From: Oscillospiraceae bacterium
Lineage (GTDB): Bacteria > Bacillota > Clostridia > Oscillospirales > Ruminococcaceae
Direction of reading: 5' to 3'
NCBI GenBank assembly: GCA_024684395.1
Contig: JAIKWY010000191.1
Span: forward strand, 1 to 37,332
DNA: 37,332 nucleotides
In this document: piece after piece, positions 6,735 to 34,793 of the stretch
Layout of the letters: the number at the start of each line of letters is the position of its first letter
How positions within the stretch are numbered: position 1 is the first letter of the stretch
Program-made: the position numbers and the translations under genes
Notes under the pieces: model-generated
What the model saw: the letters and a program-made list of their open reading frames with translations, nothing else
Databases searched by the model: none
Told to the model about the DNA's origin: nothing

Positions 6735-6882
6735 AAATTGTGAAAAACCATAGCTCATGGGTGTGCTGTGCACTGCGGCCTCCCATAGTGTGTTTTTCTG
6801 TTCAGCGTGTACGAGCAGGGAGACCTGCAAAGCCTGCGGAGCGATCCGCAAAACCAAAATTCAACGAGAGGGGAAATTACAA

Positions 6883-9501
6883 ATGCATTTCAAGAAGAGC
6901 AAGGCTGTACTTGCTGCGATCATGGCAGCTGCTATGACTGCAAGCGCAATGACAGCAACCATCTCTGCTTCTGCAGCGACCCGCAGAACCAAGACTGAGG
7001 TTTTCGGTGATTCTACTTATGCAGAGCGCTACCTGTCCTACTATGATGATGTCATCACCAATGGTCAGGCAAACGGCTACCTGTCCGAGAATACCAACGG
7101 TTCTTCCTTTGGTATCCCGTTCCATGCAAGAGAGGAAGTCATCATCGAGGCTCCTGACTACGGTCATGAGACAACTTCTGAGGCTATGTCCTACATCGTA
7201 TGGATGGCAGCCATGAGAGACAACATCGCTGCAAACCACAGCGATCAGGTAAGCAAGTCTGTTACCAACACCAACGACCTGGCAAAGGCTTGGAAGACTC
7301 TGGAAGCTATGATCCCGACCGTACAGGACAACTTCTGGTCCGGCTCCAGCGTAAGCGCTCAGTACTGCGGCGAGTATGACAAGCCGGAGCAGTGCCCGGG
7401 CGAGTGGGGATCTGAGCCTGATAAGACTGCTTCCAACCCGATCTACAGCAAGTTCACTTCCGCATACTCCGGTGAAAAGGGTCTGTACCTGATGCACTGG
7501 CTGGGCGACGTTGAGAACTGGTACGGCTTCGGCAAGGGTACCGAGTTCACCTTCATCAACACCTTCCAGCGTGGTGAGCAGGAGTCCTGCTGGGAGACTG
7601 TTCCGCATCCGTGCGTAGAAGAGCTCGAGTATGGTATGAAGGGCACCCGTGGTATGAAGGGTATCTTCAACAGAGACTCTCAGGTTGCTAAGCAGTACGC
7701 TTACACCAACGCTCCTGACGCTGAGGATCGTGCGATCCAGGCAGTATTCGACTCCATCAAGTGGGGCGTAGACGATTCTTCCGTTAATGCTCTCGCTGGT
7801 AAGATGGGTGACGAGTGCCGTAACAACATGTATGATAAGTACTATCAGGAGATCGGTGAGAACACCTCCTGGAGCAACGGCGGTTCCGACAAGGGCAAGC
7901 ACTACCTGATGAACTGGTACACCTCCTGGGGCGGCTGCCACGATGGTCAGAACAACTGGATCTGGCAGATCGGTTGCTCTCATGCTCATGAGTTCTATCA
8001 GAACCCGCTGGCAGCTTACGCTCTGGTAACTGAGGATAAGCTCGCTATGAAGGCTTCTGGCGCTAAGGAAGACTACACCACTTCTCTGAAGACTCAGCTC
8101 GAGTTCTATCAGTGGCTGCAGTCCGCTGACGGCCCGATCGCCGGCGGTGCTACCAACTCCTACAAGGGTCGTTATGAGGCCTATCCGTCCGGTGTATCTA
8201 CCTTCAATGGTATGATGTACGTAGAGCACCCGGTATATGCTGACCCGGGTTCCAACCACTGGATCGGTAACCAGGTATGGGCTGTTCAGCGTCTGGCTGA
8301 GCTGTACTACTGGTGCCTCGAGGACGGCAACGGTTCTCTGGTAACTCCTGGCGGCGAGAACATGGACAAGGCTCTCGAGAAGATCCTCGACAAGTGGGTA
8401 GCTTGGTTCGTAAGCAACACCGTACTGACCGAGAACGGCGACTTCTACATCCCGTCCAACCTCGACTGGAGCGGTCAGCCTGACAAGTGGTCCGGCAAGC
8501 AGTCCGACAACAGCGGTCTGACCTGCAAGATCACCGGCTACGGCAACACCGACCTCGGCTGCGTATCTTCTCTGACCAACACCCTGATCTACTATGCTAA
8601 GGCTAAGGGTGCCAAGACTGCTGACATCGCTGGCTACACCGAGGATTCCGTAGGCGGCGCATACAAGAGCGGTATCGACGGCGTAAGCAAGGGCGGTTCC
8701 AAGACCTACACTGCAAGCGATGCAGATCTGCCGAAGGTATCTCTGTACCTGGCTCACGAGCTGCTCGATCGTCAGTGGGAGCTCGGCCGTGATGACCTCG
8801 GTATGTCCAGACCTGACCACAACGGTTCTCTCGCACGTTTCTTCAGCCAGCCTGTATGGGTACCTGAGAACTTCGACGGCGAGATGCCGAACGGCGATGC
8901 GATCAAGAACGGTATCAACTTCCTCGATATCCGCAGCATGTACGAGGATTCCTCCAAGTGCGCTGGTGTCAAGACCTCTGACGAGGCTATTGCTCTCGTT
9001 AAGAAGCTGAGAGAAGCTTATGATAAGGACGTTGCTAACGGTGCTAAGTGGTCCAACAACTACTCCGCATCCGATGACGGCGGTAAGGCAGAGCTCGAGA
9101 AGTTCGAGAACGTTGCTGCTGTAGAGCTGAACTACCACAGATTCTGGCACGCTGGTGACTGCATGGTTGCTATGGGCGTTATGGCAGAGCTGTATCCGGA
9201 TATGAAGCCGGGCACAACTTCCACTGAGAATCCGACTGAGCCGACTGAGGAGACCACTGAGGAGACCACTGAGGAGACCGATGCTCCTGGCGAGAAGAAG
9301 TACGGCGACGTTGACTGCAACGGCAAGGTTGACATCATCGACGTTATCACGCTGAACAAGAACCTGATGGTTGGCGAGCAGCTGAAGCCGCAGGGCAAGA
9401 TCAACGCTGATGTTGATGACAACGGCGTTGTTGACGAGGTTGACTCCCTCAACATCCTGAAGTATGTTGTAGAGATCCTCGAGTCCTTCCCGGTAAAGTA
9501 A
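6883..9501 (+). CDS. GH48 processive cellulase with C-terminal dockerin (cellulosomal exocellulase)
   Basis: An 872-residue secreted enzyme. Order: signal peptide (residues 1-32, ending ATISASAA), GH48 catalytic domain (about 35-770), Thr/Glu/Pro linker (about 776-806) and dockerin (about 807-870). GH48 enzymes are reducing-end exoglucanases central to cellulosomes. The conserved HETTSEA block (95-101) holds the active-site acidic residues. The dockerin has two calcium loops, DVDCNGKVDIID and DVDDNGVVDEVD, and would bind a scaffoldin cohesin. I chose ATG 6883 because GAGAGGGG lies about 9 bases upstream and a clean signal peptide follows; a longer frame from 6757 is not supported. Codon choice (GCT, GGT, GTA, CTG) is strongly biased compared with neighbours, as in highly expressed genes. 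Confidence 0.96.
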   Translation: MHFKKSKAVLAAIMAAAMTASAMTATISASAATRRTKTEVFGDSTYAERYLSYYDDVITNGQANGYLSENTNGSSFGIPFHAREEVIIEAPDYGHETTSEAMSYIVWMAAMRDNIAANHSDQVSKSVTNTNDLAKAWKTLEAMIPTVQDNFWSGSSVSAQYCGEYDKPEQCPGEWGSEPDKTASNPIYSKFTSAYSGEKGLYLMHWLGDVENWYGFGKGTEFTFINTFQRGEQESCWETVPHPCVEELEYGMKGTRGMKGIFNRDSQVAKQYAYTNAPDAEDRAIQAVFDSIKWGVDDSSVNALAGKMGDECRNNMYDKYYQEIGENTSWSNGGSDKGKHYLMNWYTSWGGCHDGQNNWIWQIGCSHAHEFYQNPLAAYALVTEDKLAMKASGAKEDYTTSLKTQLEFYQWLQSADGPIAGGATNSYKGRYEAYPSGVSTFNGMMYVEHPVYADPGSNHWIGNQVWAVQRLAELYYWCLEDGNGSLVTPGGENMDKALEKILDKWVAWFVSNTVLTENGDFYIPSNLDWSGQPDKWSGKQSDNSGLTCKITGYGNTDLGCVSSLTNTLIYYAKAKGAKTADIAGYTEDSVGGAYKSGIDGVSKGGSKTYTASDADLPKVSLYLAHELLDRQWELGRDDLGMSRPDHNGSLARFFSQPVWVPENFDGEMPNGDAIKNGINFLDIRSMYEDSSKCAGVKTSDEAIALVKKLREAYDKDVANGAKWSNNYSASDDGGKAELEKFENVAAVELNYHRFWHAGDCMVAMGVMAELYPDMKPGTTSTENPTEPTEETTEETTEETDAPGEKKYGDVDCNGKVDIIDVITLNKNLMVGEQLKPQGKINADVDDNGVVDEVDSLNILKYVVEILESFPVK

Positions 9502-16229: not shown

Positions 16230-16370
16230 CTTGCAGTATATGCAGCAGACGGGCGGTTGGCTATCCTCATTGAAAAATGAGGGTACGCTGTGGGGATTCA
16301 AGACCACTTTGCACCATAAATTAAATCCCCAGAAACCTAAATCAGAGCATCCGCAAGGATGCGACGTGCT
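16230..16370. other. Hairpin-rich spacer before the tandem repeat
   Basis: No gene. It contains CCTCATT/AATGAGG around 16264-16282, a longer GGGGATT/AATCCCC pair around 16292-16330, and GCATCC-GCAA-GGATGC around 16347-16362. These sit directly before the first 94-bp structured repeat. Confidence 0.5.
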
Positions 16371-16582
16371 AAGTAAAAACAACGATGCCCCCTTTGGCGC
16401 AGCCATTGGGGGCATGTGGTCGTTGAAAAGGCGTACCATCCTCCTCGAAGCAGGACGGGTGCAGCGTCACGCTGCCTAAGTGAAAACAACGATGCCCCCT
16501 TTGGCGCAGCCATTGGGGGCATGTGGTCGTTGAAAAGGCGTACCATCCTCCTCGAAGCAGGACGGGTGCAGGGGCTCCCTGC
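16371..16582. repeat. Tandem pair of a structured 94-bp repeat (period 107)
   Basis: Copies at 16371-16464 and 16478-16571 differ at very few positions. Each has a long hairpin (TGCCCCC/GGGGGCA; 16386-16414 and 16493-16521) and is followed by a short hairpin. That short hairpin is GCAGCG-TCA-CGCTGC in the first copy (16461-16475) and GCAGGG-GCT-CCCTGC in the second (16568-16582). The second copy ends exactly at the stop codon of the minus-strand permease gene. A third, diverged copy lies at 27549-27640. Confidence 0.9.
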
Positions 16583-19500
16583 CTAATCGACGGATTTCAG
16601 GGATTCCGCCATGTTGATGCGTTCGAGCTTGATGCCCATGAACAGGTTGACGATCACGTTGAAGGACAGCGTGAGCGCAATGCTGTAGACATAGCTCAGC
16701 GGCATGACCTGATTCCGGAAGGATACCAGATCCACGATGATGTGGTCGATGACGTAGTGATTCAGCATGATGCCGAGCACGATCCCGACGCCGATGCCGA
16801 TGATCGTCAGCGCCAGGTTCTCACGGAGCACATACGCCGATGTCTCGTTCTTGAAGAAGCCGAGCACCTTGATCGTGGCGATCTCCCGGATGCGCTCGGT
16901 GATGTTGATGTTCGTCAGATTGTAGAGCACGACGAACGCCAGACCCGCCGCACAGGCGATGATCAGCAGCACGATGTAGTTCAGGCTGCCCATCATCTTG
17001 TTCATGCGCTCCCGCAGCTCATCGAACAGCAGGATCGTCGTGACACGGTCGTCCTTGGAGATCTCCGCAGAGAGCTGGTATACGTCGGCATCCTCCGGGA
17101 AGTTCAGGAACGCCGAGTTGATCTCCGGCATGTCGCCGGTCTGCTCTTTGATCGTCTCCGGGCGCATCATGATGTAGTTGTAGACATGATTCTCGAAGAT
17201 GCCCGAGATGCGGACGTGGATCTCCTGCAGATCCTCATTGCGGAGCGTGACGGTGTCGCCGGTGTTGATGCCGTAGCGGTCGTGGATGCTGTTGCTGATG
17301 ACCGCCTCACCGACCTCCGGGAACGGGATGGGCTCGTCCGTCATGGTGTGCAGCTCCATATAGTCTGCGATGCGCTCGGTCTCATAGGGCGCCATCAGCG
17401 TCAGGCTCTTGACCTTCTCCTCTGTGACCAGATCCCATGAGCCAGCGTGCATCAGCAGGCAGCTTTCGGTGTTGTCGTCTATGATCTTCTGCAGGTCGGC
17501 AGGGAGCACTTCGCTGTAGCTCTCCTTGAAGCCCGCCTGTGCATCTGCCAGGATGATCTCGCCATACTGGATGTCCGCAAAGCCGGCAACGGAATCCCGC
17601 AGGCCAAAGCCAGTCAGCAGCAGTGCCATGCAGCCGCTGATGCCGAAGACCATCATGAAGAAGCGCCGCTTATAGCGGAAAATGTTCCGGATGGAGACCT
17701 TGTGCAGGAATTTCAGCCGGTTCCAGATGAAGGGCAGATATTCGAGCAGCACACGCTTGCCCGCCTTCGGTGCCTTCGGACGCATCAGGCTGGCAGCCGT
17801 CTCGCTCAGCTCGATGCGGCAGGACAGCCATGTCGTACCCATCGAACAGAGCAGCGATACGCCCAGCATCGCCAGCGCCAGCTTCCAGTTCAGCACATAG
17901 ATCAGCGGCAGCGGGATGTACATCAGCTCATAGCTCATCCAGATGACCGTGGGGAACACAAGCGAACCCATCGCATAGCCGAGGATACAGCCGATCACAG
18001 CAGCGATGCCGGAATATGCCATGTACTTGCCCATAATCGTGAACTCGGAATAACCGAGCGCTTTCAGCACGCCGATCTGGGTGCGCTGCTCCTCGACCAT
18101 GCGGCTCATGGTCGTCATGCAGACCAAAATCGCCACGAGGATGAAGAACACCGGGAAGACCTGTGCCACCTGATCCACGATCTGGGAGTCGCTCTCGAAG
18201 CAGGAATAGCCGATGTTGGTATTCCGGTCGAGCACGAAGGTATCCGGCTTTTCGAGGTCAGCGACCTCCTGTTCGGCGTCGGCAAGCTCCTGCTCGGCAT
18301 CGGCGATCTTCTCGTCAAATTCCTTCTTGCCGTCCTTGTATTCTTTCAGACCGTCCTCATATTCCTTCTTGCCGTCCTCAAATTCGACAAGACCGTCCTC
18401 GTATTTCTGCTTGCCGTCCTCATATTCTTTCAGACCGTCCTCGTACTTCTGCTTGCCCTCCTCGAACTGCTTCACGCCGTCCTCGTAGTCCTTCAAGCCG
18501 TCCTCGTACTGCTTCTTGCCGTCCTCGAACTTCGCCTTGCCTTCCTCATACTTGGCGACAGCCTCGTCATACTGGCGCTTGCCGTTCTCATATTCGGATC
18601 TGCCGGCTTCAAAGGCAGCACGTCCGGCGGCAAGCTCCTGCTTCTTGGCATTGAGGGTGTCCTGGTTCTCCTGCACCTGCTGCCGTCCGGCATCGAGGGC
18701 AGCACGCTGTGCCTGTATCTGCGCACGGGCGGCATTGATCTGCTCCTGTGCGGCGGTGAGCTGTGCCTTCGTCTCCTCGGGGAGCATGTCCCACATCGGC
18801 TGGAGCTGTTCGATCTGCATCTGCACCGCCTGCTCCTGTGTGGCAAGCTGGGATTCCGCATCGTCGATCTGCGCTGCACCGGCGTTGATCTCTGCCCATG
18901 CCGCATCGAGCTGCTGCTGACCGGCAGCAAGCTGAGACTCGCCGTCTTTGATCTGCTGCTCGGACTCGTCAAGCTGCCGCTTGGCATCCTCGAGCTTCTT
19001 TCCGTTGTCATCGAGCTGCTGTTTGCCGTCCGCAAGCTCCTTTTCCGCCTTGTCGAGCTCCTCCTTGGAGTCATCGAGCTTCTTCTTGCCGTCTGCAAGC
19101 TCCTGCTCTGCCTTGTCAAGCTCCTCCTTTGCCTCGGTGAGCTCCTGCACGGCATCCTCGAGCTCCTGCTTGGCATCTGCTAATTCCTGCTCGGCGTCAT
19201 CGAGCTCCTGCTTGCCGTCCCTGAGCTCCTTTTTGGCATCGTCAAGCTCCTGCTGTCCCTCGGCACGCTTTTCTTCCAGCTCTTCCCTGCCGTCGGCGAT
19301 CTCGGCTTCTGCATCGGCGACGATCCGGTCATACCGGGCGGTCGCCTGCGTTTCGGTCAGATTTTCCCAGACCGGCGTGAGCGCCTTGATGGTGTCCTTG
19401 TAGGGCTTGGAGTAGATCGCATCGTCATTGTCGAGGGAGACGAAGATCTCAGTGTAGTAATCCACATCGAACGACTCCGGCGGGAGATAGAGATATGCCC

Positions 19501-20086
19501 GCACGGTGCCGTCACCGATGGAGGTCGTGCCACGCTCGAAGTTCAGGTAGTAGGTCGAATGGCAGGCGCCGACGACCTTGAATTCCTGGTATTTCAGGGC
19601 GTCGATGGTGTCCTCATCGTTGGAATCGGACACACGCACCGTGCTGCCGACGATCATGCCCGTGGTCTCTGCCATGCCGGCGTCCATGAGGCATTCATCC
19701 GGGCTCTCCGGCATACGCCCTTCTGTGAGCTGCAACAGGTTGATGTCCTTGGGGATGGAGTGCGTTTTCAGGACGAAGCCTGTCTCGTCCTCGCCCTCGC
19801 AGATGACATCGAGGGAATGGCATCCCTCGGCGAACCGCACGCCCTCCTGCTCCCGGAGCGCATCGACATCCTGCTCCTCCCAGCCGAGGGTGGAAACGAG
19901 CCGGAAGTCGTAGAGGTTGCCCTCCTCGAAAAAGCGATCGACCGTGGCGATCATGTCTGGCATGGTGACACGGATGCCCGCAAAGAAGCCGACACCGAGC
20001 ATGATGATCGCCATGATGGCAAGGAAGCGCCCGAGTGTCGCCCGGATCTCACGCAGCGTCGTGCGCCGCATCATATTCCGCTTCAT
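16583..20086 (-). CDS. FtsX-type ABC permease with a giant extracytoplasmic coiled coil
   Basis: A 1167-residue protein. Order: membrane segment (about residues 20-40), MacB-like extracytoplasmic domain, a coiled coil of about 350 residues (roughly 255-612), then membrane segments of a first FtsX core (from about 640). A second extracytoplasmic part and the C-terminal FtsX core (about 1030-1160) follow. The coiled coil ends in a heptad run of the type K-x-Y-E-D-G-L/K, repeated about a dozen times. Such two-core permeases pair with a MacB/LolD-like ATPase, here encoded directly upstream with a 4-base gap. The substrate is unknown; mechanical signalling across the envelope or lipid/peptide export are both possible. 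I chose ATG 20086 over a longer start at 20113 that would overlap the ATPase gene. Confidence 0.88.
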   Translation of the reverse strand: MKRNMMRRTTLREIRATLGRFLAIMAIIMLGVGFFAGIRVTMPDMIATVDRFFEEGNLYDFRLVSTLGWEEQDVDALREQEGVRFAEGCHSLDVICEGEDETGFVLKTHSIPKDINLLQLTEGRMPESPDECLMDAGMAETTGMIVGSTVRVSDSNDEDTIDALKYQEFKVVGACHSTYYLNFERGTTSIGDGTVRAYLYLPPESFDVDYYTEIFVSLDNDDAIYSKPYKDTIKALTPVWENLTETQATARYDRIVADAEAEIADGREELEEKRAEGQQELDDAKKELRDGKQELDDAEQELADAKQELEDAVQELTEAKEELDKAEQELADGKKKLDDSKEELDKAEKELADGKQQLDDNGKKLEDAKRQLDESEQQIKDGESQLAAGQQQLDAAWAEINAGAAQIDDAESQLATQEQAVQMQIEQLQPMWDMLPEETKAQLTAAQEQINAARAQIQAQRAALDAGRQQVQENQDTLNAKKQELAAGRAAFEAGRSEYENGKRQYDEAVAKYEEGKAKFEDGKKQYEDGLKDYEDGVKQFEEGKQKYEDGLKEYEDGKQKYEDGLVEFEDGKKEYEDGLKEYKDGKKEFDEKIADAEQELADAEQEVADLEKPDTFVLDRNTNIGYSCFESDSQIVDQVAQVFPVFFILVAILVCMTTMSRMVEEQRTQIGVLKALGYSEFTIMGKYMAYSGIAAVIGCILGYAMGSLVFPTVIWMSYELMYIPLPLIYVLNWKLALAMLGVSLLCSMGTTWLSCRIELSETAASLMRPKAPKAGKRVLLEYLPFIWNRLKFLHKVSIRNIFRYKRRFFMMVFGISGCMALLLTGFGLRDSVAGFADIQYGEIILADAQAGFKESYSEVLPADLQKIIDDNTESCLLMHAGSWDLVTEEKVKSLTLMAPYETERIADYMELHTMTDEPIPFPEVGEAVISNSIHDRYGINTGDTVTLRNEDLQEIHVRISGIFENHVYNYIMMRPETIKEQTGDMPEINSAFLNFPEDADVYQLSAEISKDDRVTTILLFDELRERMNKMMGSLNYIVLLIIACAAGLAFVVLYNLTNINITERIREIATIKVLGFFKNETSAYVLRENLALTIIGIGVGIVLGIMLNHYVIDHIIVDLVSFRNQVMPLSYVYSIALTLSFNVIVNLFMGIKLERINMAESLKSVD

Positions 20087-27429: not shown

Positions 27430-27548
27430 GATGATTCCTCCTTTTCGAGGGAGTTATAGAGATAAGAGGTAAGAACCCTTCTTGCCTCTCTTCTCACTTA
27501 TTTGAAAGATTCAAGCTGCCGCATGGCAGCGGTTATCTAACCGCATCA
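27430..27548. other. Spacer between pgk and the small membrane protein gene
   Basis: Holds the ribosome binding site of the small gene and short hairpins such as GCTGCC-GCAT-GGCAGC (around 27515-27530). No gene is seen. It adjoins the structured repeat at 27549-27640. Confidence 0.4.
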
Positions 27549-27640
27549 GCTTTGCTCCCTTTGCGAAGCATCGGGAGCAAGCGGACACGAAAACAGTGCA
27601 CCTTTCTCCTCAAAGCAAGATGCCAGCAGGGGCTCCCTGC
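27549..27640. repeat. Third, diverged copy of the structured repeat
   Basis: It matches the pair at 16371-16582 in order and shape: a hairpin TGCTCCC/GGGAGCA (27553-27579), a linker with CTCCTC-AAGCA-GA (27605-27620), then the identical 15-base hairpin GCAGGG-GCT-CCCTGC (27626-27640). As at 16582, it ends exactly at the stop codon of a minus-strand gene, here pgk. Confidence 0.75.
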
Positions 27641-28861
27641 TTATTTCTCTGCGATAACTGCTACGCCCGGGAGCACCTTGCCCTCGAGGTACTCAAGGGA
27701 TGCGCCGCCGCCGGTGGAGATGTGGCTCATCTTGTCAGCAAAGCCGAGCTGCATAACAGCTGCTGCGGAGTCACCGCCGCCGATGATGGTGGTAGCATCG
27801 GTCTCTGCCAGAGCCTTGGCAACTGCGATGGTGCCCTGTGCGAGAGTCGGGTTCTCAAATACGCCCATCGGGCCGTTCCATACAACGGTCTTAGCGGACT
27901 TCACTGCATCAGCAAAGAGCTTCTGGGTCTCGGTACCGATGTCCAGACCCATCTTGTCAGCCGGGATCTCGGAGGACTTTACGTTCTCGATAGCGATCGG
28001 AGCGTCGATCGGATCCGGGAAGGAAGCTGCAACAGCAGTATCTACCGGCAGGAGGATCTTCTTGCCGAGCTGCTCAGCCTTTGCGAGCATCTCCTTGCAG
28101 TAGTCGATCTTCTCGTCGTCAACGAGGGACTGACCGATGGAGCCGCCCTGTGCCTTGATGAAGGTGTAAGCCATACCGCCGCCGATGATGAGGGTATCGC
28201 ACTTCTCGAGCAGGTTGGAGATAACGTTCAGCTTGTCAGCGACCTTTGCGCCGCCCAGGATGGCAACGAACGGACGAACCGGGACCTCTACGGCATTGCC
28301 GAGGTACTGGATCTCCTTCTGCATCAGGTAGCCAACAGCGGTCTCCTTGACGAACTTGGTCACGCCGGCAGTGGAAGCATGTGCTCTGTGAGCGGAACCG
28401 AATGCATCCATTACGAATACCTGACCGTCTACGAGGTCAGCGAGCTCCTTGGCGAAAGCCTCGCCGTTCTTGGTCTCCTCATCGCCACGGAAGCGGGTGT
28501 TCTGGAGCACGACGATGTCTCCGTCAGCCATAGCAGCTACAGCAGCCTTGGCATTCTCGCCGACTACGGTGTCATCGTTAGCGAAGGTAACCTTTGCGGA
28601 AACCAGCTCTGCCAGTCTGTCAGCAGCAGGCTTGAGGGAGAACTTCTCCTCCGGACCGTTCTTCGGCTTGCCCAGATGGGAGCACAGAACGACCTTGGCA
28701 CCGTTCTCGACCAGCTTGTTGATGGTCGGCAGTGCAGCCTGGATTCTGTTATCGTTGGTGATAACACCATCCTTGAGCGGAACGTTGAAATCCACTCTGA
28801 CGAGGACCTTCTTGCCCTTTACGTCAATATCTTCTACTGTAACCTTGTTCAAACCTGCCAT
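27641..28861 (-). CDS. pgk: Phosphoglycerate kinase
   Basis: A 406-residue glycolytic kinase that transfers phosphate from 1,3-bisphosphoglycerate to ADP. Landmarks: [11 protein letters not shown] near the N-terminus, LCSHLGKPK, the hinge segment [13 protein letters not shown] and the C-terminal nucleotide-binding [11 protein letters not shown]. Length is normal. AAAGGATG lies about 10 bases before the ATG. It heads the glycolytic cluster; gap, which often precedes pgk, is not in the window. Codon usage is highly adapted. Confidence 0.97.
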
Positions 28862-32695: not shown

Positions 32696-32780
32696 AAAAA
32701 TTTTTTTGAAAAAACCAAAAACCATGTAACGTTTCCCATCCATCCTGCGATATATATAAGTGAAGGGGAAAGATGCGCCC
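32696..32780 (+). promoter_or_regulatory. ECF-like promoter cassette, copy 2
   Basis: Same layout as the copy at 32595: TTTTTTTGAAAAAA, TGTAAC (32725-32730), a 17-base gap, CGAT (32748-32751) and TATATATAAGTGAAGGGG. The conserved blocks match exactly while the spacers differ, so this looks like a maintained duplicate. Confidence 0.65.
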
Positions 32781-32787
32781 GGGATGC

Positions 32788-32816
32788 TTGACATACGGCA
32801 GCGGATGGGGTACAAT
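32788..32816 (+). promoter_or_regulatory. Housekeeping promoter of the dockerin protein gene
   Basis: TTGACA (32788-32793), a 17-base spacer and TACAAT (32811-32816), about 60 bases before the start codon and downstream of both ECF-like cassettes. Confidence 0.8.
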
Positions 32817-32876
32817 AAAAGCAGAAGAACCGCGCATATCCCGCAAAACATGCTCATGCAGAAAGGTGGTATTACT

Positions 32877-34793
32877 ATGAAAAAGAAGATGAAGAGAGCC
32901 ATTGCCTGCCTGTTGTCCCTTGCCATGCTGACGGGGAGCATCGTCACGGGGACTGTGGCAGCCGACACCACAGCAGAGACGGAAACGATCGCTATAGATG
33001 CCGAGGCGGAGTTTCTCCCGGTCGCAGTCTATGTGCAGCTCAGTGCGGAGCATGCGGCACAGCTTGATGCGTTCCGGCAGGAATATGAAGCATTCCGTGA
33101 CGAGAAGGAAGCCGGTCTGGTACCGCTGTCAGAGGAGGAAAACGAAGCCTATGACCGGTTCGTCAAGGGCGAGATCTCGCAGGAAGAGTATACTGCCATC
33201 TCTAAGAAGAACCAGCCGCTCATTGATGCCATTGCGGATCAAGTCGGTGAAGCCTATTTCAAGTTCAATGCAGATGCCAGGAACCTTGCCGAGAGCGAAG
33301 CCGCAGACAGAATGGCGGAATGGGGCATTTCCGGTCTCAATTTTACCAATGTGTATACGGACAGCGCCAGCTACTGCCTCAGCGGCGAAGTGACGGCTGT
33401 ACAGGCTGAAATGCTGCGCAATGATCCGGCTGTGACAGCGGTGGAGGAATTTGAGCCGCTCGAACTCCCGCCGGCCGAGCCTGATACCGCGGAACCGATC
33501 ACCATTGAGACGGATACCTTCAGCTATACATGCTACACGCCGCTGTCGAACATCCGGAATTACATTGACGAGAGGGACGAGCTCTCCATCCCGGATACAA
33601 AGGCGAATCTCATGGTGACGGGCGCTTTCCAGGATAAGACTTCCGGCAGAATCGTGTACACGGCGATCGAGCTGAACTCGAAGGCCGGCGCTTACCGCGG
33701 CAGGATCCTGTACTGGGACAATGTGCCCGGGAATGTGCCGCTCCATGCAGGCGACCTGCTGAATCTGACGGGCTATTCCCCGATTGAGCCTTATCCGCCC
33801 GTGTATCCGTGCGGTGAGGACACGCAGTTTGAGGTCATCGGCAACGGCTGCGATCTGCTCGGCGAGGAATTTGAAGAGGTCATCGAGCATGAGAAGCGCC
33901 TTGCGGGGTATTATGCCCTTGGCGCCGGACTCGAAAACTACACCGAGTACTACACGCCTGTGGAAGAGGAAGCGAAGAACTGGGACTACTACTGGAACCT
34001 TGACGATTATGCCGTTTACAAGGACTATGTCAGAACGCACGGAAAACCATTCACCGATGGTGAGATGCAGTTCGTCCCGGAGGATACGCTTCCGGCGGAG
34101 ACAGAGCTCCCGTGGTATGAGAATATGCACTATTATGTGACGAATGATACTTACTTTGACGGGATCACCTATTGGGTCGATGAAAAGCTGACGGATCAGG
34201 ATGTCATCGAGATGGCAGAGACACCTTCCTACTTCGGCTTCCCGGATGCATGGCATCTTGACAAATACGAGATGCTCTATGATGACGGGGATTCGGGCGC
34301 TTATATGGATGTTGGGTGCCATGTCGTGCGACCCTTCGGCGCATCCCACTGCGGCAGCATTTCTCTGCGGTTTGACCAGCTGAAGAACATCGGTGTGCAG
34401 GAGATCCCGGTCATCCGGAGCGTTGTTGATCTGTACCGGATCCAGCTCACGCTGGAGCATTCACAGTTTGCACAGGAGCATGTGCGGATCAACAGCTACG
34501 GCTATGATTTCCGGTTTGACCCGCCCTACGGCACGACTGATGCATATTACAGCTTCGGCGATCCTTCCGGTGACGGCGTTGTCAACGCCTCCGATGCAGC
34601 AGCCGTCCTGATCGAGGCAGCGGCTGTCGGCGCAGGCATGGAGACGGGCTTTACGGAGACACAGCTCTCCGCCGCCGATGTCAACCGGGACGGCACGGTC
34701 AACGCATCCGATGCGGCAGTTGTTCTGGTGTATGCATCCGCAGTCGGCTCGGGCGACCGGTATGCGAAGATCAGCGATTTTGTCAAGACATAA
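32877..34793 (+). CDS. Secreted dockerin protein of unknown function (cellulosomal)
   Basis: A 638-residue secreted protein: signal peptide (residues 1-29, ending TGTVAA), a helical charged region (about 45-190, with VAVYVQLSAEHAAQLDAF), a large Tyr/Asp-rich region of unknown fold (200-555) and a C-terminal dockerin (about 563-632). The dockerin has two calcium loops, DPSGDGVVNASD and DVNRDGTVNASD. It would attach to a scaffoldin cohesin like the GH48 enzyme, but its dockerin is of a different sequence type (Ala-rich helices). No glycoside hydrolase, esterase or carbohydrate-binding motif is recognised. AAAGGTGG precedes ATG 32877. Three promoters lie upstream. Confidence 0.85.
   Translation: MKKKMKRAIACLLSLAMLTGSIVTGTVAADTTAETETIAIDAEAEFLPVAVYVQLSAEHAAQLDAFRQEYEAFRDEKEAGLVPLSEEENEAYDRFVKGEISQEEYTAISKKNQPLIDAIADQVGEAYFKFNADARNLAESEAADRMAEWGISGLNFTNVYTDSASYCLSGEVTAVQAEMLRNDPAVTAVEEFEPLELPPAEPDTAEPITIETDTFSYTCYTPLSNIRNYIDERDELSIPDTKANLMVTGAFQDKTSGRIVYTAIELNSKAGAYRGRILYWDNVPGNVPLHAGDLLNLTGYSPIEPYPPVYPCGEDTQFEVIGNGCDLLGEEFEEVIEHEKRLAGYYALGAGLENYTEYYTPVEEEAKNWDYYWNLDDYAVYKDYVRTHGKPFTDGEMQFVPEDTLPAETELPWYENMHYYVTNDTYFDGITYWVDEKLTDQDVIEMAETPSYFGFPDAWHLDKYEMLYDDGDSGAYMDVGCHVVRPFGASHCGSISLRFDQLKNIGVQEIPVIRSVVDLYRIQLTLEHSQFAQEHVRINSYGYDFRFDPPYGTTDAYYSFGDPSGDGVVNASDAAAVLIEAAAVGAGMETGFTETQLSAADVNRDGTVNASDAAVVLVYASAVGSGDRYAKISDFVKT

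Follow-up and report, generated by a model that had tools for sequence, protein, structure and literature searches.

The described systems closest to the element analysed here are the REP and BIME repeats of Escherichia coli and Pseudomonas, which, like it, are short G+C-rich palindromes present in many intergenic copies, in mosaics and in tandem, with a preference for positions 3' of genes. Known REP-like repeats lie near gene ends at rather loose distances, and their spread is explained by the RAYT transposase. In enterobacteria, ERIC sequences are small mobile intergenic repeats of ~100–170 bp. Integron attC sites also follow stop codons, and an identity with them was set aside because copies of the element sit behind core genes (pgk, groEL, RNase III). 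ERIC and RU-1 to RU-3 (the latter three as described in the accessible part of PMC2759123) are similar to the element in being intergenic mobile repeats of ~100–170 bp and differ from it in their enterobacterial hosts; the likeness is one of description. According to the accessible part of PMC3733652, the REPs of some genomes lie close to the 3' ends of ORFs, and a TAG stop is often part of the GTAG terminus of a REP.

The window (the whole stretch of 37,332 nucleotides that was analysed) corresponds to contig C208 in the draft assembly G000, which totals 4.2 Mb. It carries three copies of an element that, read on the minus strand, is a mosaic of ~130–175 nt consisting of a head hairpin (A), a small hairpin (B), a long hairpin (C), a further hairpin (D) and a tail. 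On the element strand, hairpin A of most copies reads, 5' to 3', GCNNGG-AGC-CCNNGC or GCAGCG-TGA-CGCTGC and is followed by NGGC or ACCC/ATCC. Hairpin B is centred on TTGCTTCGCAA or TCCTGCTTCGAGGA, with a T-rich linker next in many copies, and hairpin C has the form CRCWTGCCCCC..loop..GGGGGCAWNGY, often followed by GTTTTTTC. Hairpin D and the tail complete the element, which ends near GGTTTCAGACAATGGTGCA in many copies. The modules occur as complete A–D units, as tandem copies, and as one head type joined to several different bodies.

The initial annotation of the window described two tandem copies of 94 bp and a third, diverged copy at 27549–27640. Two tandem copies are present, with a unit of 107 nt (16369–16475 and 16476–16582, 95% identical), and the third copy extends over 27513–27640 (Table 1). 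The tandem units differ at five positions, four of which fall within the 15-nt head hairpin: two constitute the paired change that the annotation had quoted for the short hairpin and two lie in the loop. The paired change quoted for the long hairpin was likewise found in the sequence, and so was the contact with stop codons, copy 2 adjoining the TAG of a gene for an FtsX-like permease and copy 3 the TAA of the phosphoglycerate kinase gene (pgk). Elsewhere in the window, two plus-strand genes (6757–9501 and 32760–34793) encode proteins with C-terminal repeats that look dockerin-like by eye; the product of the former, also by eye, resembles a family 48 glycoside hydrolase, and together these features would suggest a cellulosome producer. 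The host bacterium is related to rumen species. Its assembly (4.2 Mb, listed contamination 4.26) is larger than those of the drawn members of its genus (1.5–2.9 Mb) and is possibly a mixed bin.

Table 1. Copies of the element and adjoining genes in the window, and half-heads and heads with other bodies elsewhere in the genome
Feature	Position	Strand	Basis
Copy 2, first in transcription order, 107-nt tandem unit; head adjoins the FtsX-like TAG	16476..16582	-	
Hairpin A (head) of copy 2, GCAGGG-AGC-CCCTGC, distance 0 from the stop	16568..16582	-	fold
Hairpin B of copy 2	16543..16565	-	minus-strand fold
Hairpin C (long) of copy 2, outer stem AACGA/TCGTT, then GTTTTC	16488..16531	-	fold, consensus
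Copy 1, second in transcription order, A to D	16345..16475	-	115.3 bits
Hairpin A (head) of copy 1, GCAGCG-TGA-CGCTGC	16461..16475	-	fold
Hairpin D of copy 1, GCATCC-TTGC-GGATGC	16347..16362	-	consensus
Copy 3, A to D; head adjoins the pgk TAA; in the pgk-tpi cluster, separating pgk from the gene after it	27513..27640	-	113.5 bits
Hairpin A (head) of copy 3, GCAGGG-AGC-CCCTGC	27626..27640	-	fold
Hairpin C of copy 3, TGCTCCC/GGGAGCA, no T-run after it	27552..27580	-	fold
Hairpin D of copy 3, GCTGCC-ATGC-GGCAGC	27515..27530	-	consensus
Host gene, FtsX-like ABC permease, stop 16583-16585	16583..20086	-	
Host gene, phosphoglycerate kinase, stop 27641-27643	27641..28861	-	
Half-head	L099:3996	+	
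Half-head	L103:18273	+	
Half-head	L107:6822	+	
Half-head	L121:4886	+	
Half-head	L102:2565 (counted from the other end)	-	
Head with another body	L106:2951	+	
Head with another body	L120:5226	+	
Head with another body	L110:14753	+	
Head with another body	L138:13618 (counted from the other end)	-	
Head with another body	L133:11392 (counted from the other end)	-	
Head with another body	L154:6972 (counted from the other end)	-	

The three copies belong to a large family, as the annotation had proposed. When the genome was searched at the DNA level, 41 matches were obtained at E ≤ 10; a covariance model built from 30 aligned copies gave 102 matches in it at E ≤ 1, of which 64 scored at least 42 bits and were kept, the 38 below 42 bits being dropped. 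The annotation would have abandoned its claim had there been no further copies, or copies with broken stems; both further copies and preserved stems were found, the stems pairing in 95.5% of the 2,954 stem cells analysed below. Rfam returned no match at gathering level for the whole window and none up to E = 10 for 16300–16620, and searches of an open-access library yielded, by title and abstract opening, no description of this repeat family.

Positions were determined in ~1.16 Mb of the genome, the window included, in which a purpose-made hexamer gene finder called 979 genes. The sampled stretches were picked to contain copies, so the copy density is not representative, while the position test is independent of that choice. 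The annotation had asked whether copies cluster at stop codons, and they do: in 27 of the 64 the start is no more than 1 nt away from where the upstream stop codon ends, against a chance expectation of 0.87% for a random intergenic start and strand (binomial p ~1e-38). A further nine lie 2–13 nt from the stop, and the remaining 28 are farther off, overlap gene ends or have no such gene. The head faces a gene end in 51 of the 64 copies, 32 of them between genes of the same direction and 19 between convergent genes; ten more copies are inverted, one is divergent and two lie at the ends of a fetched stretch. The same orientation is seen for the hairpins taken by themselves. Counting 6-bp hairpins with 3-nt loops and at least four G-C pairs, the sample holds 78 with an AGC loop and 44 with a TGA loop (10 and 4, respectively, within coding sequence), and 28 of the former and 7 of the latter lie at −3 to 5 nt from a stop. 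In the reverse orientation, none of the 78 (GCT loop) and none of the 44 (TCA loop) does.

The stop codons next to the copies were compared with those of the sample. The 27 closest copies follow TAA in 18 cases, TAG in six and TGA in three, whereas the 935 genes of the sample use TGA 471 times, TAA 390 times and TAG 74 times. In several copies behind TAG, the head begins with the G of the stop codon itself. Both features would be accounted for if the element were a MITE moved by a DDE transposase for which TAA and TAG stops supply a TA-type target. We consider such an origin quite unlikely. When the flanks were inspected by eye, neither terminal inverted repeats of the whole element nor a TA duplication was seen, TA stands at the start of the head in only 3 of the 28 copies that are not near a stop, and three of the 27 closest copies use TGA.

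The head is not always followed by the body described above. The motif GCNNGGAGCC occurs 132 times in the genome sample, and 29 of these occurrences lie within 1 nt of a stop; its reverse complement is never found there (0 of 132). Among the 29 stop-adjacent occurrences the paired 3' arm is present in 23 and absent in six. Twelve occurrences that lack the 3' arm lie outside called genes, five of them at a stop; L121, the sixth of the stop-adjacent half-heads, overlaps a second called gene. Of these six, L151 resembles a poorly paired head with another body. Half-heads consist of a stop codon, directly followed by GCGGGGAGCC and then by unrelated sequence. In other cases a complete stop-adjoining head precedes differing repeat bodies, which begin with TGGCAGACGCACGCC, TGGCATCTTATG or TGGCAGGTACTAAGG, and several repeat families therefore seem to share one left end. 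Half-heads, heads and heads with other bodies all sit at stops, and the element thus varies at its far end while its junction with the stop stays the same.

This pattern could arise if a mobile repeat targeted stop codons, its copies being attached, whatever the gene, directly after the stop (or with the third base of the codon), starting from the head, with copying that often stops early; the graded series of half-head, head, head with another body and full element would then follow from the early stops. Deletion at the hairpin tip after insertion gives the same picture, and early-terminated copying is thus put forward as a hypothesis. We know of no transposase family that attaches copies directly after stop codons, and we hold targeting of this kind to be possible but doubtful. 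If it does occur, the mechanism would be new and might be coupled to translation termination, to mRNA 3' ends or to hairpin-primed copying.

The covariance model found matches (E ≤ 0.01) in 13 of 41 genomes. All 13 belong to this genus, some of them with no more than one weak match, and the search drew a blank in its 16 genomes from other families. The copy-richest relatives are G005 (62 matches), G013 (20), G019 (17), G011 (10) and G023 (10). Under stricter filters (E ≤ 1e-4), G000 alone matched among 148 genomes of the family, two other genus members in that draw having none; the same two were also free of copies in the 41-genome search. A scan of named genomes with a degenerate pattern, which may omit records of the own genome, returned 12 stretches, 11 of them from Oscillospiraceae RGIG8346, a MAG from water-buffalo rumen. 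The repeat family was found in one genus only. The twelfth stretch (L192) comes from a Dehalococcoidia MAG contig of Lake Baikal and is perhaps a chance match.

Hairpins A and C are retained in the diverged relatives. Of the 75 relatives' matches compared, mostly the best ones of each genome, 26 are no more than 1 nt from a stop and a further 10 are 2–13 nt away. The proportion within 1 nt varies by genome: 16/37 in G005 (37 of 62 matches compared), 1/14 in G013 (14 of 20), 3/13 in G019 (13 of 17), 5/6 in G011 (6 of 10), 1/4 in G023 (4 of 10) and 0/1 in G021 (1 of 2).

Orthologous gene ends were compared for five genes. The pgk ends of 27 genomes, read by eye, have a conserved C-terminus and TAA in every case; heads follow in G000, G045, G023 (5 of 6 pairs) and G006 (1 nt away, with a 4-nt loop), and half-heads in G011 and G004. 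The FtsX-like gene (22 genomes) also has a conserved C-terminus, with a head in G000 behind TAG, an imperfect one in G005 behind TGA (4 of 6 pairs) and none seen in the other 20. For groEL, the C-terminus was reached in 13 of 27 rows. Heads stand directly after TAA in G000, G005, G019, G043 and G002, a head lies 5 nt off in G009 and a half-head is found in G004; the bodies behind the stop-adjacent heads vary by species, those of G000 and G005 being alike. A gene that we take, from its family assignment, to encode a CDP-alcohol phosphatidyltransferase ends in TAG in four of 26 genomes, and in three of them (G000, G005 and G021, by eye) a head starts on the G of that TAG; the other 22 genomes use TAA or TGA, and no head was seen in them. 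RNase III (26 genomes) is followed by a head in G000 only, where the protein is one residue longer before the stop than in the relatives, so the C-terminus is altered in at least one case. At groEL and pgk, species differ in the body that begins at or next to the stop, and most of the relatives read lack the element there. By these comparisons, genes mostly retain their native end whether or not they carry the element, and the body behind a given stop can be specific to a species.

The annotation had read the paired changes as meaning that the fold is selected. Stem statistics were collected from 140 matches (139 distinct) of G000 and its relatives, aligned to the covariance model. The stems do co-vary, with 416 two-sided changes against 97.8 in shuffles and a covariation score of 0.393 against 0.117. 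Selection on the fold of a transcribed RNA is expected to tolerate G-U more than A-C, and the tRNAs of this sequence set do so, with 14 G-U against no A-C in eight distinct tRNAs. A control of 54 terminator-like hairpins shows 22 G-T and 12 A-C, a weaker contrast than that of the tRNAs. In the element, 25 cells are G-T, 28 are A-C and 106 are other mismatches, as counted in an alignment fitted to the covariance model. G+C-rich stems and shared descent could contribute in part to the low number of G-T cells.

A second line of evidence comes from 16 sites of G000 and its close relative G005 matched by their flanking sequence, 11 of which lie within 13 nt of the G000 stop (one more pair was unalignable). 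These sites carry 20 two-sided Watson-Crick changes, one other two-sided change and 15 one-sided pair-breaking changes. Thirteen of the 20 Watson-Crick changes sit in the head, five heads carrying two or three together, and at C212:37478 and C26:93597 the whole head type differs, including the loop and the following bases, while the downstream sequence is mostly unchanged. Palindromes that are copied, corrected or exchanged as DNA units would yield such whole-unit differences. With G-T about as rare as A-C and heads that differ as whole units, the conclusion that the fold is selected does not follow from the paired changes. REPs that flank orthologous RAYT genes also change yet stay palindromic, from which the authors of PMC2817692, in the part of it accessible, infer strong selection on REP traits.

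The same data bear on the first of two options offered by the annotation, an RNA element in the 3' region of mRNAs. A cis-acting 3' UTR element (a riboregulator, or one acting in processing or stability) with its fold under purifying selection would explain the strong covariation, the retention of hairpins A and C in diverged relatives and the sense-oriented head right at the stop. It would also explain why the minus strand folds far better than shuffled sequences: z is −4.6, −4.1 and −3.9 for the three window copies, each beating all 200 shuffles, and weaker on the plus strand (−3.5, −3.0 and −3.1). We nevertheless judge this explanation unlikely in view of the equal rarity of G-T and A-C, the whole-unit head differences at matched sites, the half-heads that persist at stops and the lack of an Rfam match. 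Moreover, most of the genus members read lack the element at four of the five genes, and at groEL 8 of 13 have no head directly at the stop. The second option, a palindromic repeat at gene ends, is the better fit of the two.

Elements near stops are presumably transcribed, since they lie in sense direction behind their genes, and judging from this arrangement they probably form part of the upstream gene's 3' UTR. Of the 36 copies at −1 to 13 nt from a stop, 18 have a T-run behind hairpin C (11 of 24 between same-direction genes, 7 of 12 between convergent ones). A rival explanation is that the family consists of intrinsic terminators, in which hairpin C and its U-run end transcription and the remainder is decoration. 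The T-runs and the 51 heads that face a gene end are in line with such a role. The other 18 near-stop copies lack the T-run, copy 3 inside the pgk-tpi cluster among them, a terminator pattern scan of both window regions left hairpin C unflagged, and terminators do not need contact with a stop codon. The element also differs from intrinsic terminators in its extra hairpins before and after hairpin C, in the unconserved T-run and in its lineage-specific repeat sequence, and we regard this explanation as very unlikely. The lack of a T-run in copy 3 suits a setting in which termination would be costly, although as a single case it proves nothing.

How does the element compare with the REPs? In these, a GTRG/CGTC tag stands directly before the palindrome; here it is found in 1 of 64 copies on the element strand and in none of 64 on the opposite strand. 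On the opposite strand the palindrome is preceded by GCCN in 42 of 64 copies (GCCA in 27) and by GGGT in eight, and GCCN is possibly the element's own tag, reminiscent of the REP tag with other letters. The RAYT domain (Y1_Tnp, PF01797) has no match in G000 and is absent from the five relatives with most copies, and a RAYT/Y1 transposase was accordingly rejected as the mobiliser; in a draw of the genus it was found in 1 of 31 genomes (G021, partial), while 5 of 14 control genomes were positive. Two RVT_1 (reverse transcriptase) matches occur in G000, L290 (G000:C9:61762-62385) and L291. REPs are short palindromes as opposed to a multi-hairpin unit of 130–175 nt, and they keep looser distances from gene ends, whereas the junction here is often exactly at the stop. 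G-T pairs, whose frequency is named as support for REP transcription in the accessible part of PMC3733652, are very few here. Although it behaves like REP and BIME repeats, the element is not filed as a REP because the tag and the RAYT are both lacking; the mosaic and tandem palindromic modules that characterise BIMEs are present.

Taken together, the copies are probably lineage-specific, REP/BIME-like mosaic palindromic DNA repeats whose left end, the head A, lies on the upstream stop in many copies. We read them, as the best explanation, as a new REP-like DNA repeat anchored at stops, whose cassettes spread and recombine. On this reading, palindrome cassettes would be copied to gene ends as DNA and would recombine there, and palindromy would be held at the DNA level, through hairpin-mediated copying, correction or conversion, rather than by selection on the RNA acting point by point. 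Neither an insertion caught directly nor a duplicated target nor an enzyme that would mobilise the element was found. Counting against the reading are also the 28 of 64 copies that lie outside −1 to 13 nt of a stop, the low share of stop-adjacent copies in G013 and the one-sided pair-breaking changes at the matched G000–G005 sites.

A stop-anchored DNA repeat of this kind may still have consequences for the transcript. Within the transcript's 3' UTR, a terminating ribosome would have to open the head, and hairpin C, with its T-run in half of the near-stop copies, could act by slowing or ending transcription or by protecting the end of the mRNA. An effect of this kind, from hairpin C or from the head, is putative and would be secondary. 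E. coli REPs within 15 nt of stops stall ribosomes, according to earlier work cited in the accessible part of PMC12306157, and by this parallel the head could act on terminating ribosomes.

Covariation alone, as this family illustrates, is no proof of a selected RNA. About four in ten copies start no more than one base from where a stop codon ends, which points to an unrecognised process that copies or maintains DNA at the ends of genes. The junction is often exact, one gene end can bear different bodies in different species, and no RAYT is found, which makes two old questions testable: how palindromic repeats come to lie at stop codons, and whether their paired changes are due to selection on RNA or to the copying of palindromes at the DNA level. 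What deserves attention in this finding is how exactly the element is tied to stop codons.
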